From Burkholderiaceae bacterium (GTDB lineage: Bacteria > Pseudomonadota > Gammaproteobacteria > Burkholderiales > Burkholderiaceae), in contig CANGNV010000010.1 of assembly GCA_947455485.1 (NCBI GenBank), forward strand, positions 1-64,000: DNA of 64,000 nt. Direction: 5' to 3'. The position numbers and the translations under genes are program-made. This document shows, in pieces, positions 34,329 to 42,811 of the stretch. The first letter of the stretch is position 1. Each line of letters opens with the position of its first letter. A model generated the notes under the pieces. The model made no database searches, had not been told where the DNA came from, and worked only from the letters and a program-made list of their open reading frames with translations.

Positions 34329-35498
34329 TTACCGTAATTTCAGGCTGGAGAGGCCAATGAGAACTAATAAAATGGTGATGATCCAGAAACGAACTACTAC
34401 TTGTGTTTCGCGCCAGCCACCTAATTCGAAATGGTGATGAAGTGGTGCCATCCTAAAAATACGACGACCCTCACCAAAGCGCTTCTTGGTAAATTTGAAC
34501 CAAAACACTTGCAGCATTACTGATAGTGTTTCTGCCACAAAGATTCCGCCCATAACAAAGAGCACAATTTCCTGGCGAACAATCACCGCAATAGTACCGA
34601 GTGCTCCACCCAATGCGAGTGCACCAACATCACCCATAAATACTTGAGCAGGATGTGTGTTGTACCAAAGGAATGCTAGTCCCGCACCACCCATGGCACC
34701 ACAGAAAATCATGAGCTCACCCGCACCCGGGATATAAGGAAACAATAAATACTTTGCGTAAATTGCGTTACCCATTACATAAGCAAAAGCACCCAGAGCG
34801 GCACCAACCAATATCACTGGCATGATTACCAGGCCATCAAGTCCATCTGTGAGATTTACGGCGTTACTACTGCCAACAATGACTAAGTAACTCAAAATGA
34901 TGAAGCCCATTACGCCCAGCGGGTAGCTAATCTCTTTCATAAAAGGAATCAGCAAGTTTGATTTTGCTGGCAGATCCAAGGCAAATCCGCTTTTGAGCCA
35001 CTCAAAGAATAATTGCAAGACTTTGAGGTTATTTACTTCAGATACGGAGAAGGCTAAATAAATAGCGGCAAATAATCCAATCAAAGTCTGCCAAAAGAAT
35101 TTTTCGCGTGAGGCCATTCCTTTGGGATCTTTACGCGCTACTTTGCGGTAATCATCAACCCAACCCACCAAACCAAATCCAAAGGTCACAATCATCACAA
35201 TCCAAATAAAGCGATTGCTCAAATCAGCCCACAACATGCAGGAGATAAAAATACCTAAAAGGATTAATACGCCACCCATTGTTGGGGTACCTGATTTCAC
35301 TAAATGGGTTTGCGGGCCATCCGTACGAACCGCTTGACCCATCTTCAATGCAGTCAACTTGCGTATAACCCATGGACCAGCCGCCAAGCCAATCAGCAAA
35401 GCAGTCACTGTTGCCATAACCGCTCTAAAAGTGATGTAGTTAAAGACTCGGAAGAATCCAAAATCATCCTGCAACCATTGCGCCAATATCAAGAGCAT
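34329..35498 (-). CDS. mraY: Phospho-N-acetylmuramoyl-pentapeptide transferase
   Basis: 389 aa; [36 protein letters not shown]. Confidence 0.97.
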
Positions 35499-36937
35499 GT
35501 TTTAGCCTCCTCTAATAAGGCCTGTACTACACGCTCCATACGCATAAAACGAGATCCCTTAACCAAAATATCTAAGTGCAACTGCTTACCTGACTCTTGA
35601 TCTGCGAGCGCCACATTAAGCTCTTCAAGCAACTGATCTAGCGTGGTAAAGTGAGTAGCACTGCTAGCAGACTGAGTCTTTCCTGAATCATTAAAGCCCT
35701 GCACCGCAAATTTGCACTGCTCTCCGAGCGCAAATAACTTAACTATTCCCTGCTCAGCAGCATAGGCTCCAACTTCCTCATGGAACGCAGGACCTTGATC
35801 ACCTACTTCGCCCATATCACCCAATACCAACCAAGAAGCATTGCCAGACTGTTTAAGCGCATCAATAGCAGCCCTTACAGAATCTGGGTTCGCGTTGTAA
35901 CTATCATCAATCAAGGTGCGACCCGCATTCAAAGGCTTTGATTGCATGCGTCCATTTACCGGAACAAAAGATTCCAGACCGGCTTTGATTTGATCCAAAC
36001 TCAATCCAGCACCTAAAGCAACTGCGCTAGCCGCTAGAGCATTGCGCACATTATGGTTTCCTAAGGTATTGAGCTGAACTTCAACCCTGCCAAGTTCAGT
36101 TGAAATTTCAATTCTTCCGCTAGCTAATAACTTTCCAGTTACAGAGGCTTTGACTAACGCCGAATCCGCAGATAAAGCAAAGTCAATTACCTTGCGTCCT
36201 GCAGCAGCTTGATGCCAAACCGCAGAGAATTCGGAGTCAGCTGGAAATACTGCAACACCATCCGCAGGAAGTGCAATCAAAGCGCTCGCATGTTCTTTTG
36301 CGACCGCTTCTACAGTCGCCATAAATTCTTGATGCTCGCGCTGGGCATTGTTGATAAGGGCAATATTGGCTTGAGCAATCAGGGCTAACTCCGCTGTTTC
36401 GCCAGGATGATTCATCCCTAACTCAATCACTGCTAAGCGGTCGGTTGATCGCATGCGTAGCAAGGTTAAAGGTAGGCCAATATCATTATTGAAGTTACCT
36501 TTAGTCACCAGAGTGCGCTCTTCACCGGCAGCTGCCTTGAAGATTGAAGCAATCATCTCTTTTACAGTGGTCTTGCCATTAGATCCCGTTACCAAAGCTA
36601 CTGGGATAGAAAACTGTGCACGCCATGCCTTTGCCAACTCACCCAAACCCTGTTTAACATCCTGGACACATACTGCAGGTAAGTTTGCAGGGCATTCTTC
36701 TTTATGGCTAATAAGTGCTGCACTTGCGCCCGCTGTTGCCACATCACCCAAGAAATCATGCGCATCGAAACGATCGCCAGACAAAGCAATAAATAATTCG
36801 CCAGACTGAATCTGACGACTATCGCTCCCAACCTGAGAAATGGAAATTCCTTCAGCAGACTTTGCGTCAGCATGAATCAACTGACTGCCTGGCAACATAG
36901 CATGGACTTGGGCGAGAGTAGTCATGGGCGTACTCAT
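35489..36937 (-). CDS. murF: UDP-N-acetylmuramoyl-tripeptide--D-alanyl-D-alanine ligase
   Basis: 482 aa; [35 protein letters not shown]. Confidence 0.96.
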
Positions 36938-38487
36938 ACGCTACCCCCTGCAGCTAAACGAATATGCTCTTGATCAGAAAAATCAAATTTCTTGCCACTG
37001 ATTTCTTGAGTAGACTCATGTCCCTTGCCTGCAACCAGAACAATATCCTTAGTATCGGCATGTCGTACCGCAGCCATAATGGCAGCCGCTCTATCAGGAA
37101 GCGCCTGCACATTCGATAGGTCGCCTGACATACCAGCTTGAATCATGGCAATAATAGAAGCTGGATCTTCAGATCTGGGGTTATCACTCGTAATCACAAT
37201 ATGATCAGCAAACTCTTGCGCTGCGCGACCCATTTGTGGGCGCTTACCTGAATCTCGATCGCCACCGCAACCGAACACACACCATACTTTTCCGTTACGT
37301 TGATTTGCAATGGGGCGTAATGCATTTAATGCTTTAACGAGAGCATCTCGTGTATGCGCATAGTCCACAACAATTAATGGCCCCTCAGTTCTTTGTGTTT
37401 TATTTAAGTGAATCAGCTCCATCCGGCCTGGAACAGCACTCAACTTACTCATGCGCTTAGAGGCTTCGCTGGGGCTTAAGCCTTGGGCCAATAGAGTTGT
37501 CCAAACAGCAAGGCAATTACTTAAATTAAATTCACCCAATACTGCAAGCTGAACAGCGCTTGAACCTGACGCATCACAGTTAAATTGAGATTCATAGCCC
37601 GCAGTTGTAAACAGAGTATTTTCTGCATAAGCACGTTTCAAACGGTCGCCAAATTTTTCAAATCCGGCAAATGCATTGCTACTTAATGCGTAGCCCCATA
37701 CTTGAGGACCGTCGACAGCGAGAAGCTTCATTGCTAATTCGCGCCCAAATGCATCATCAAAATTGATGATGGCATTCTCAAGCTGGGGCAACTGAAATAG
37801 CTTTGCTTTTGCCTCAGCGTACTCACCCATCGTGCCGTGATAATCCAAATGATCTTGAGTCAAATTGGTAAATACCGCAGTACGCACATCCAAACCAGAA
37901 ATGCGGTCTTGATCGAGCGCATGGGAAGAAATCTCTATCGCCACCTGCTGAGCACCCGCTTCAAGCAATTCTTTTAATTGAGTCTGTAAACGCGGTGCAT
38001 CGGGTGTGGTGTAGCCAGTCTCGGTCAATGCACCCGGGAAGCCGGTACCTAAAGTACCTAAAACTGCTGCTCGATGATTAGATTCATCCAAGGCCTGTGC
38101 CAGCCACTGAGTAATACTGGTTTTTCCGTTGGTGCCGGTAACGCCGATAACATTCAGCTGTCTACTTGGGTAGCCATACCACTCGGCACAGAGTTCTCCA
38201 GCTAAGCTAGATAAATTATCAACAGCAAAACATTCTGAGCGATCTAGGTATTCGTTGGCAACACCATCTGCGGGATCAAATACGACAGCTGCCGCTCCAT
38301 TTGCTAAGGCAGCTGCAATGTAATCACGACCGTCACGCAAGGCATTGCCATGACCAACGGAGTATGCAAAGAAGATATCGCCAGATTGAATTTGACGACT
38401 ATCAGCAGTTACTTTTGCAGCTGCGGATGTGAGATCACGTAAATGAGAGACCAAGAGATGGGGTTCGATATTGATCATAGCCATCAT
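36934..38487 (-). CDS. murE: UDP-N-acetylmuramoyl-L-alanyl-D-glutamate--2,6-diaminopimelate ligase
   Basis: 517 aa; GVTGTNGKTSITQWLAQAL, SDNPRSEDP (meso-DAP recognition motif DNPR). Confidence 0.97.
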   Translation of the reverse strand: MMAMINIEPHLLVSHLRDLTSAAAKVTADSRQIQSGDIFFAYSVGHGNALRDGRDYIAAALANGAAAVVFDPADGVANEYLDRSECFAVDNLSSLAGELCAEWYGYPSRQLNVIGVTGTNGKTSITQWLAQALDESNHRAAVLGTLGTGFPGALTETGYTTPDAPRLQTQLKELLEAGAQQVAIEISSHALDQDRISGLDVRTAVFTNLTQDHLDYHGTMGEYAEAKAKLFQLPQLENAIINFDDAFGRELAMKLLAVDGPQVWGYALSSNAFAGFEKFGDRLKRAYAENTLFTTAGYESQFNCDASGSSAVQLAVLGEFNLSNCLAVWTTLLAQGLSPSEASKRMSKLSAVPGRMELIHLNKTQRTEGPLIVVDYAHTRDALVKALNALRPIANQRNGKVWCVFGCGGDRDSGKRPQMGRAAQEFADHIVITSDNPRSEDPASIIAMIQAGMSGDLSNVQALPDRAAAIMAAVRHADTKDIVLVAGKGHESTQEISGKKFDFSDQEHIRLAAGGSV

Positions 38488-40256
38488 CTTTTTAAAACCG
38501 CTGTATTTGTTTTGACTGCGGCACTCTGTATTTCTGCAGGGCTTTGGTCCTGCATTGCTTTCTGCTTAAGAGGGCTGTCTGGCAAGACATTTAAGGTGCG
38601 CAGAGTCTCACTCACAATAGTCGAAAACACTGGTGCTGCAACATCACCACCGTAGTGACTGCCACCAGTCGGCTCATCAATCATGACGGCAACTACAATG
38701 CGTGGCGCACTAATGGGTGCCAAGCCCGCAAAGTAAGCGCGGTACTTATTGCCATACCCCTTACCTACTAATTTATGGGCTGTACCTGTTTTTCCACCAA
38801 CTCGATAACCTTCAGCCTGCGCTTTAATTGCGGTGCCACCTGGCTCAGTTACTGACTCCATCATGCTACGCATCTCAATGGCCGTCTTAGCAGAAATGAT
38901 ATGTGTACCTGGCTTAAATTCTGGACTACGCTCAATCGTAAGTGGCACCAATTCACCATCACGTGCAAAGATCGTGTAAGCACGCGCCACCTGAAAGAGT
39001 GAAGCTGAAATGCCATATCCAAACGCAATCCGCGCCTGATCCGTTGGCATCCATTTTTTAAAAGGGTGCACCGTGCCAGCTACAGCACCAGGAAAGCCAA
39101 TCTTTGGCGCCTGACCTAAACCAACTGATGTGTAGAAATTCCACATCTCTTCTGCGGATAAATTATTCATCGCAATTTTGGCCGTACCAATATTGCTCGA
39201 TTTTTGAATAATTTGCGCAACGGTGAGGTTACCGTAAGGATGGGTGTCTGTAATTGGCTTTGGACCAACCAGATATTTAGCGCCAATCACCATATTGGTA
39301 CTAGGAGTGATTGCACCCTTCTCTAAAGCAATCGATACCGTTAAGGGTTTAATCGTTGAGCCAGGCTCAAAGGTGTCAGTTAAAACGCGATTACGCAACT
39401 GCTCACCTGTTAATTTCTTACGATCGTTAGGGTTGTAACTTGGGTAATTGGCTAGGGCTAAGATCTCGCCAGTTTGGGTATCCAGCACGACTGCACCACC
39501 AGCGCTTGCATGGTGCTGTTCAACTGCATTTTTAACAGCGTTGTACGCAAGAAATTGAATCTTGCTATCAATAGAAAGTTGCAAATCTTTACCGTTTTGC
39601 GGTAACTGCAAAATTGCAACATCTTCAACAACGCGACCGAGGCGATCCACAACCACTCGACGAGCACCTGGATGTCCAGCCAACTCTTTTTCTCTAGAGA
39701 GTTCCATACCCTCTTGACCACGATCTTCCACATTAGTAAAGCCAACAACGTGCGCCATCGCTTCACCCTCAGGATAGAAGCGACGGTATTCATTATTCAA
39801 GCCAATGCCCGGAATTTCTAATTGCTTAATCTGTTGCGCCACTTCTGGGTCTACTTGGCGCTTCAAGAAAACTTGTTTACGCTCTTCTCTGAGCTTTTTA
39901 CGCAACTCTGCTTCGCTAATCTGCAAAAGATTTGCTAATTTCTGCACCTTATCTGCAGCCAAATCATCAGGAACAGTGTCGTTATAGGCGATCACTGACT
40001 TTGCTTCCAAGCTGGTAGCAATCACTTGACCATTGCGATCCAATATTTTTCCACGGGAAGCAGGCAACTCCAACTCACGCTGTGTACCGCGCACACCTTT
40101 GGCTTCATAGAAGGCATTTCCTGGACCCTGTATCCAGAAGGCTCTGATTAAGAGCAACATGAAAACGAAGAACAGCATGAACAGCATCAGGCGTGACCGC
40201 CACATTGGCAAACGCAATACTAAATTTGGCGTGGTTGAAAAACCTACCGGCCTCAT
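38484..40256 (-). CDS. ftsI: Peptidoglycan D,D-transpeptidase FtsI (PBP3)
   Basis: 590 aa; FEPGSTIKPLTV (SxxK), KSSN, VGGKTGTAHK. Confidence 0.97.
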   Translation of the reverse strand: MRPVGFSTTPNLVLRLPMWRSRLMLFMLFFVFMLLLIRAFWIQGPGNAFYEAKGVRGTQRELELPASRGKILDRNGQVIATSLEAKSVIAYNDTVPDDLAADKVQKLANLLQISEAELRKKLREERKQVFLKRQVDPEVAQQIKQLEIPGIGLNNEYRRFYPEGEAMAHVVGFTNVEDRGQEGMELSREKELAGHPGARRVVVDRLGRVVEDVAILQLPQNGKDLQLSIDSKIQFLAYNAVKNAVEQHHASAGGAVVLDTQTGEILALANYPSYNPNDRKKLTGEQLRNRVLTDTFEPGSTIKPLTVSIALEKGAITPSTNMVIGAKYLVGPKPITDTHPYGNLTVAQIIQKSSNIGTAKIAMNNLSAEEMWNFYTSVGLGQAPKIGFPGAVAGTVHPFKKWMPTDQARIAFGYGISASLFQVARAYTIFARDGELVPLTIERSPEFKPGTHIISAKTAIEMRSMMESVTEPGGTAIKAQAEGYRVGGKTGTAHKLVGKGYGNKYRAYFAGLAPISAPRIVVAVMIDEPTGGSHYGGDVAAPVFSTIVSETLRTLNVLPDSPLKQKAMQDQSPAEIQSAAVKTNTAVLKR

Positions 40257-40519
40257 CTAGCCTCCTTCAGGTACAAAGTACGCTCTGGAGATATGGGGAC
40301 CATATGTAACTGATTACGAGCAACATCACGAATACGTGCCGACTTAGAAAGGTTGCGCTGCTCATACTCTAGGCGCAACCAATCTTGATTCAGCTTGCGC
40401 TCTTCAATTTGCGCTCGCTCTAAGGAGATAAATAATTTACGTGCACGCTGCTGGGCTGCAACCAAAGAGAGGGCGCACACCAATAGCAAGACAAGTAAGG
40501 TCAGCGTAGCGCGGTTCAA
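40253..40519 (-). CDS. ftsL: Cell division protein FtsL
   Basis: 88 aa single-TM protein between rsmH and ftsI. Confidence 0.9.
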
Positions 40520-41466
40520 GCTGGCACTCCTGTGCGTTTTTCAGCAACTCGCATGATGGCTGAACGAGCACGAGGATTCTCTCGGACTTCTTCATCACTT
40601 GGCTTAACGCGTCCAATAATCTCTAAGGCGCTTTGCGGTAAATCTCTATCGCGGACCGGCAAACCCCGAGGCACTTCAACCTTCGCATGTGACTGCAAAA
40701 ATTGCTTAACGATACGATCTTCTAGCGAATGAAAACTAATCACCGCTAAGCGTGCGCCTGGCTTTAGTAAATTAAGCGCTGCTTTTAATCCAAGTTCAAG
40801 ATCTTCTAACTCGCGATTAATGAAAATGCGTAGCGCCTGGAATGTTCTAGTAGCTGGATCTTGTCCAACTTCTCTTGTGCGTACAACGCTGGCCACCAAG
40901 CTTGCTAGTTGCAAAGTTGTTTTTGGCGACAAACCCTCTTCTCGCTTAGCTACGATAGCTTTTGCGATCTGAAATGCAAAACGTTCCTCACCATAAGTCT
41001 TAATCACGCGCGTGATGTCCTCTTGTGATGCTTGCTCTAACCATTCTGCTGCTGTGAAACCATGATCCGTGTTCATGCGCATATCGAGCGGACCATCCTT
41101 GCGAAAGGAAAATCCACGATGTGCTTCGTCCACCTGTGGAGAGCTGATGCCAAGATCTAACAAAATGCCATCGACTGATTCTGGCTCTGCGTATTGATCC
41201 ATCTGCGCAAAACTGTCGTGCACGATTCGTAAGCGAGGATCGTTGATTTTTCCCGCTACTGCGATCGCATCCAAATCCTTGTCGAAGGAAATCATGCGCG
41301 CGCTCGAAGGTAATTTTGAAAGCAGTGCTTGCGTATGCCCGCCACGCCCAAAGGTTCCATCGATCAAGAGTAGATTTTTTGAGGTTTCGGGAGAGGTGAT
41401 GCGTGGGCCACTGATCAGCGCCGTCACCGCCTCGGCCAGTAATACTGGGCGATGAGTTATGTTCAT
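40516..41466 (-). CDS. rsmH: 16S rRNA (cytosine(1402)-N(4))-methyltransferase
   Basis: 316 aa; [63 protein letters not shown]. Confidence 0.97.
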
Positions 41467-41478
41467 GGCACCCTGTCA

Positions 41479-41910
41479 TCAAAAATTAAATTGCTTCAGG
41501 GCTTCAGGCATACCTTGTGCAATGGCAGCCTGTTCTTTTGCAGCGTAAGTAGCGGCGTCCCACAACTCCAGATGACTACCCATGCCGAGCAGCATCACTT
41601 CCTTTTCAATACCAGCAGCTGATCGCAATTCTGGGCTCACCAAAATTCTTCCTGCGCTATCCAAATCTACTTCTGCAGCATTACCAAGGAAGATTCGGCG
41701 CCACCAATGGGCATCCATCGGCAATTGGGCGACACGTGTGCGGAACGTTTCCCACTCAGGGCGAGGGAACAACAAGAGGCATCCATCAGGGTGCTTTGTG
41801 AGCGTAATTCGGCCCTCACCTTGAACTAACAAGGCGTCACGATGCTTTGCCGGCACAGACATGCGGCCTTTTGCATCTAAATTGAGAGCTGACGCACCTT
41901 GAAACACCAT
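41479..41910 (-). CDS. mraZ: Transcriptional regulator MraZ
   Basis: 143 aa; [25 protein letters not shown], two AbrB-like repeats. Confidence 0.96.
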
Positions 41911-41914
41911 TTAC

Positions 41915-41939
41915 CCCACTTTTTCACACTTCCTCCCAC
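41915..41939 (-). promoter_or_regulatory. mraZ: MraZ-box array (10-bp direct repeats)
   Basis: Minus strand GTGGGAGGAA GTGTGAAAAA GTGGGGTAA-ATG: GTGGG/GTGTG/GTGGG at exact 10-nt spacing. Confidence 0.8.
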
Positions 41940-41966
41940 TTTAGAGGATCGCAATAAGAGGGTCAA
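41938..41966 (-). promoter_or_regulatory. Proximal sigma70-like promoter of mraZ/dcw
   Basis: Minus strand TTGACC (41961-41966) - 17 nt - TAAAGT (41938-41943). Confidence 0.55.
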
Positions 41967-42121
41967 GTGTTTTTGGGTAATTTTTTAGGAAATTTCCTAG
42001 TGATTACAAACACTTAGCGTCATGTCTTGATAAAATGGTGACTATAAAAATGCTACTTGAAACAACGGCTTGGAAAATATACTTAAGAATAGGTCTTAGC
42101 TATTTGGCCCAATAATGGATA

Positions 42122-42151
42122 AATATACTGTATTAATAAACAGTATTTCAA
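42122..42151 (-). promoter_or_regulatory. Distal promoter with embedded LexA (SOS) box upstream of mraZ
   Basis: Plus strand TACTGTATTAATAAACAGTA at 42126-42145 (CTGT-N8-ACAG); on minus strand it lies between TTGAAA (-35) and TATATT (-10), spacer 18. Confidence 0.7.
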
Positions 42152-42181: not shown

Positions 42182-42811
42182 CTAAATTTTGTAAGCAGTG
42201 TTTGTCATGACTTTTGACATCGCCTGCATTAGCCTCTGAATCGGCTCCGGCAAGACCGCGCCACCAGCAGAAAGTGCGGCCTGTCCATGCTCGATTTCAT
42301 CGACGCGCATTTGATCAACAATGGCGCGAGAACGCTGATCCTCAACAGGCAATTTATGGAGGTGACTCTCGAGATGATTTTCTACTTGTTTTTCTGTTTC
42401 AGCAACAAATCCAAGACTCCACTTATCGCCCGCTAAGCCAGCAGCCAAGCCGATTGCAAAGGATCCCGCATACCAAATTGGGTTGAGATAACTCGTGTGA
42501 GAACCCAACTCCTGAAGGCGTGTTTCGCACCAAGCCAAGTGATCCATTTCCTCTTGAGCGGAGTGATCCAACATCTGCCGAATTTCAGGACTGCGGGCCA
42601 CTAATTTTTGCGACTGATAGAGGGCCTGGGCGCAAACCTCACCCACATGATTGACACGCATTAATCCAGCAGCGTGCTCTCGCTCTTTGACGTCCAGCAA
42701 AGCGGTAGATTGAATATCCGAACCGGGGGTTGGGCGATGAGCATGAGCACCCCCAACTACCGAGCGCAAGGCTGTATCAAACTCAATAATGAAGCGGTCA
42801 ATTAGCGCCAT
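42182..42811 (-). CDS. coq7: 2-polyprenyl-3-methyl-6-methoxy-1,4-benzoquinone monooxygenase
   Basis: 209 aa; ERE...[35 protein letters not shown] di-iron motifs. Confidence 0.95.

Follow-up and report, generated by a model that had tools for sequence, protein, structure and literature searches.

A clade-wide LexA-type site upstream of mraZ and the division and cell-wall cluster in Polynucleobacter

The coq7-mraZ intergenic region

The window analyzed here (the whole stretch of DNA, 64,000 nucleotides) originates from a genome that, judged by its named relatives, is a member of Polynucleobacter, a freshwater genus. It carries mraZ, followed by genes of the division and cell-wall (dcw) cluster, and a LexA-type (SOS) box located 37 nt past the stop codon of coq7. 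The features of the region are the following, in descending order of coordinates:

42182-42811, minus strand: coq7, the upstream neighbour of mraZ on the same strand, confirmed by Pfam
42146-42151, minus strand: -35-like TTGAAA of the putative SOS promoter, identical in the genome's own umuD promoter, not conserved in relatives
42126-42145, no strand assigned: LexA/SOS box TACTGTATTAATAAACAGTA, with the core CTGT-N8-ACAG at 42128-42143
42122-42127, minus strand: -10-like TATATT, which overlaps the box at its 3' edge; mostly kept within the clade and seen in umuD promoters as well
41911-42115, minus strand: putative leader, running from a start predicted near 42115 up to the ATG of mraZ
42058-42074, minus strand: another conserved element upstream of mraZ, TCCAAGCCGTTGTTTCA, similar to the one at 42002-42018
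42002-42018, minus strand: element GCTAAGTGTTTGTAATC, conserved in the region upstream of mraZ
41938-41966, minus strand: presumed housekeeping mraZ promoter TTGACC-17-TAAAGT, near-invariant
41913-41940, minus strand: GTGGG-type repeats between the housekeeping promoter and mraZ
41479-41910, minus strand: mraZ, confirmed by Pfam
35489-41466: open reading frames at the positions of rsmH, ftsL, ftsI, murE, and murF, downstream of mraZ

MraZ is a regulator of its own cluster, and the GTGGG-type repeats are presumably its autoregulatory sites. The elements at 42002-42018 and 42058-42074, both of the AAG-N3-TTG type and both upstream of the mraZ promoter, probably form a site for some regulator of the dcw cluster. 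As the CTAAGTnnTTGT motif of the element at 42002-42018 also precedes mraZ in Polynucleobacter genomes lacking the box, in Cupriavidus, and in Trinickia, it is older than the box. Within the clade described below, the roughly 150 nt that follow the box are strongly conserved; being at least partly older than the box, this block is best read as part of the ordinary mraZ promoter region.

Sequence statistics of the box

The 20-mer TACTGTATTAATAAACAGTA was recovered at 42126-42145, where the initial annotation had placed it. The latter counted two mismatches out of 20 to the E. coli ideal TACTGTATATATATACAGTA, a number that has to be corrected to three (positions 9, 10, and 14). The box is the top-scoring LexA-type site within the window. 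The bare 16-base core CTGT-N8-ACAG carries little weight on its own, with one match in the window for 0.91 expected, and 10 matches in the whole genome for 11 with the reversed control; the whole-genome core counts are uninformative by themselves, and so are counts of the motif with one mismatch.

The full 20-mer TACTGTN8ACAGTA, by contrast, matches beyond chance: it occurs six times in the genome (one in the control), and mostly two to six times in relatives of the genus (zero to one in the controls). The six exact copies are those of umuDC, recA, the mraZ-upstream box, and three TnpB-like genes, while in close relatives it recurs at recA, umuDC, and the mraZ-upstream box. In the complete genome G018, it is found only at the mraZ-upstream box, umuD, and recA (the latter being a long frame beside the box, read as recA). 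With a weight matrix trained on other SOS sites of the genus, including those of recA, umuD, and lexA (training range 18.5-30.9 bits), the mraZ-upstream box scores 26.9 bits, inside the range of the recA, umuD, and lexA sites. The runner-up non-overlapping site in the window reaches 5.9 bits, and no score above 18.1 bits was obtained in 4 Mb of dinucleotide-matched random sequence.

LexA and the SOS regulon of the genus

The genus motif lies upstream of recA, umuDC, and lexA. Full-length LexA is encoded in 17 of 18 sampled relatives of the genus, including the close relative G008, and in relatives the lexA gene carries its own box about 65 nt upstream. In the assembly under study, which is 85% complete, lexA was not found, and a UmuD-like protein only was recovered. 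No SulA homologue scored above the cut-off in 10 Polynucleobacter genomes.

Conservation across Polynucleobacter

The coq7-mraZ gap was compared in 113 Polynucleobacter genomes. Lack of the box in close relatives had been named beforehand as a refuting outcome; the box turned out to be kept at a nearly fixed distance from mraZ, its core being present in all 91 genomes of one clade, 222-246 nt before the mraZ start (mostly 233), as an exact match in 86 of them and as CTGG-N8-ACAG in the other five. The gap of the remaining 22 genomes, all deeper-branching relatives, contains no site, although LexA is present there. This distribution requires a single change on the Coq7 protein tree, on a branch with an SH-aLRT support of 98%, in a tree with long branches and an unfixed root. 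No box was found before mraZ in Cupriavidus, Trinickia, and further genera belonging to the order (eight order-level loci whose orientation could not be settled were not counted), which favours a gain of the box in the clade rather than a loss elsewhere.

A chance resemblance to the LexA consensus, in favour of which it can be said that a bare core is expected about once per window, is thus made negligibly probable by the rarity of the 20-mer, both in genome counts and with the genus matrix, and by the retention of the core clade-wide in 91 genomes, against a saturated background.

In G017, a reduced single-contig chromosome of 1.6 Mb from the same clade that is not among the 113 genomes, the site has decayed to TTGG-N8-ACAG. 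In this genome, mraZ is split over two frames (L027) and no UmuD match was found, which suggests a joint decay of mraZ, the SOS box, and UmuD.

Selection on the box

Across the 91 genomes, the parsimony changes per core column are 0, 0, 0, and 3 for C, T, G, and T of the first half-site, and 0 for each of A, C, A, and G of the second, so that seven of the eight core bases never change. The N8 columns show 1-11 changes, and the columns upstream of the box 8-35, except for an adjacent invariant A; third codon positions of coq7, used as the comparison background, undergo 20 changes on average. This pattern indicates strong purifying selection on precisely the bases that LexA requires, and the variation follows the LexA rules, CTG and CAG being invariant and N8 free. 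One-sided changes are never compensated on the opposite side, which argues for a protein-binding site rather than a hairpin.

The palindrome could also be read as a transcription terminator or an RNA hairpin ending coq7, since it lies so close (37 nt) behind the stop codon of this gene and its RNA is able to form a 7-bp stem. This reading is very improbable: the RNA folds no better than shuffled sequences (z -1.17), the one-sided changes are uncompensated, some genomes keep only CTG/CAG, i.e., a stem of 3-4 bp with a loop of at least 8, and the spacing, exactly 8 in each of 91 genomes, suits binding by a protein dimer. An intrinsic terminator at the box was also searched for and discarded, as the terminator scan found none and compensatory changes are missing. 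Overall, the site upstream of mraZ is very probably a genuine LexA operator.

Promoter layout

The TTGAAA/TATATT pair, on the minus strand and with an 18-nt spacer enclosing the core, was recovered independently by a promoter scan. The box occupies the -35/-10 spacer and abuts TATATT. The genome's own umuD promoter reads TTGAAATACTGT-ATGGATAT-ACAGTATATT and the mraZ-upstream site TTGAAATACTGT-TTATTAAT-ACAGTATATT, the layout common to both being TTGAAA-TACTGT-N8-ACAG-TATATT. Among relatives, the -10 TATATT is largely kept and the -35 is variable, at the umuD and mraZ-upstream loci alike. As the -10 lies on the mraZ side, transcription would be directed at mraZ. On the involvement of LexA, the layout of the promoter, and transcription toward mraZ, the proposal of the initial annotation is well supported by the sequence. 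The subclade L167-L179 has lost the -10 and keeps the core in a weaker box (12-17 bits); for these genomes, a different layout or a weaker link has to be supposed.

LexA might also act as a roadblock or silencer devoid of its own promoter, halting read-through from coq7 or disturbing an activator of the mraZ promoter. Such a role would suit a box placed just past the coq7 stop, a -35 that is not conserved, and a subclade that keeps the core without the -10. It nevertheless appears unlikely, given that the -10 TATATT is largely conserved and that the layout matches that of umuD, where a promoter is certainly needed.

The interval between the box and mraZ

No intrinsic terminator was detected between the box and mraZ by the terminator scan, no consensus structure was obtained with RNAalifold on 90 distinct rows of this interval, and the interval contains neither an Rfam match nor a conserved reading frame. 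The short open reading frames present there (16-29 codons) were examined and rejected: a TTG-started one of 22 codons is interrupted in the genome under study, and the rest overlap either the promoter or the start of mraZ.

These results bear on the possibility that LexA controls a small RNA, or a very short leader RNA, which would be transcribed between the box and the mraZ promoter and would act in trans or on translation of mraZ. The short RNA that the initial annotation offered as an alternative finds no support in them, as terminator, conserved open reading frame, conserved structure, and Rfam family are all missing. The high conservation of the roughly 150 nt downstream of the box in the clade speaks for such an RNA, but the conserved block, or its CTAAGTnnTTGT part, also occurs in box-less genomes and in other genera, and thus belongs to the mraZ promoter region and not to an SOS transcript. 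A small RNA is, therefore, improbable. With no terminator, conserved open reading frame, or RNA structure in the gap, an SOS transcript would most likely read into mraZ and the dcw cluster.

Proposed mechanism

We infer LexA binding, induction, the start site, read-through, and an effect on division from the sequence. An additional sigma-70-type promoter of mraZ and the dcw cluster would lie upstream of the ordinary one and contain the site; LexA would shut this additional promoter off by covering the spacer and the -10. Upon DNA damage, RecA-stimulated LexA cleavage would open this promoter, and RNA polymerase would start about 205 nt upstream of mraZ and continue past the ordinary promoter into mraZ, and then into the division and cell-wall genes. 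That the operator drives SOS transcription into mraZ and the dcw cluster is given a probability of about 0.7, and DNA damage would thereby probably alter division-gene expression directly in most of Polynucleobacter.

Several points stand against SOS transcription into the cluster. The assembly itself, 85% complete, yields umuD and not lexA. The -35 is not conserved, and the L167-L179 subclade combines a missing -10 with box scores of 12-17 bits. Inducing the division cluster during SOS contradicts the usual division-blocking logic. With a housekeeping mraZ promoter downstream, the SOS promoter could contribute little, or, through interference, could even have a negative effect.

The likeliest outcome would be a burst of MraZ, which would shift division-gene expression during SOS, in one direction or the other. 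In Neisseria elongata, also a betaproteobacterium, an excess of MraZ increases expression of the first dcw genes and makes the cells smaller (PMC9395523), and filamentation of E. coli upon down-regulation of the cluster is cited in the same paper.

Comparison with known systems

SulA, YneA, SidA, and DivS are dedicated SOS division inhibitors that tie DNA damage to division; in Polynucleobacter, unlike in these systems, the target would be the division cluster itself. To our knowledge, SOS arrest or retuning of division in bacteria lacking SulA is largely unexplained. As in the SOS promoters of E. coli recA and Polynucleobacter umuDC, CTGT-N8-ACAG sits in the spacer and abuts the -10, and the layout is near-identical to that of umuD in the same genome. 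Unlike in the recA and umuDC promoters, the predicted target is not a repair gene driven directly but a division and cell-wall cluster that lies over 200 nt away, on the far side of a second, housekeeping promoter.

The view that direct LexA control of the dcw cluster is unusual needs qualifying, since the link has already been proposed in gut Firmicutes (PMC3998124) and in E. coli (PMC3265435). In gut Firmicutes, mraZ was predicted as an SOS gene, and its upstream site was bound by Bacillus subtilis LexA in vitro (PMC3998124). Both cases share a LexA site upstream of mraZ and a proposed SOS control of division. The Firmicutes case relies on a Gram-positive LexA motif, a metagenomic prediction, and a gel shift with B. 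subtilis LexA, whereas Polynucleobacter is a betaproteobacterium with a CTGT-N8-ACAG motif conserved clade-wide at a fixed position. LexA repression of the E. coli dcw cluster via three SOS boxes is cited in PMC3265435. The resemblance there is that a stress or metabolic repressor (LexA and PdhR sites) acts on promoters of the dcw cluster, whether upstream or inside it; the paper, whose regulation figure is adapted from EcoCyc, states no positions for the three boxes.

A literature search returned no paper linking LexA and Polynucleobacter in the sense of mraZ/dcw control. In view of the earlier proposals, the Polynucleobacter site constitutes a new, clade-wide, and strongly conserved instance, and it strengthens the gut-metagenome hint that mraZ has been recruited into SOS regulons more than once, in lineages far apart. 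All sampled intact genomes of a large clade retain the site; it would connect the central division and cell-wall cluster with the damage response, and it opens the question of division control without SulA to direct tests in freshwater bacteria that are easy to handle.

Other SOS-boxed genes

In box-less Polynucleobacter, another gene is found at SOS boxes:

L340-L345 (e.g., G005:C3:19577-19696) and L347-L349: small-protein loci of box-less Polynucleobacter

In 9/9 sampled genomes without the mraZ box, a protein of 36-40 aa (e.g., MKTLIANPIWSAISGLVIWMVFAEKPGEWQRKEWVCSRSE) is encoded directly behind a perfect SOS box. It is conserved, contains one hydrophobic stretch, and matches no Pfam or NCBIfam family. 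In three box-bearing genomes, relatives of it that are diverged or doubtful are encoded, and these lack an SOS box. The protein is a candidate for a SidA-type division inhibitor induced by SOS. That one SOS division effector was exchanged for another between the clades is possible but speculative: it is rather doubtful that deep-branching species control division with this SOS-induced putative single-helix protein, and that the crown clade dropped this link and put mraZ and the dcw cluster under LexA, division then being regulated via MraZ and not via a SulA-type inhibitor.

Three TnpB/OrfB-like genes of the genome under study (C14:21437, C14:29233, and C15:39893; L006, L007, and L008 at 1499-1518), one of which was checked by Pfam, start at a perfect TACTGTATATAAT[T/C]ACAGTATG, with the -10 inside the box and the ATG overlapping its end. 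A comparable case is found in another family (L089), and LexA control of tnpB of the IS200/IS605 type is possible.
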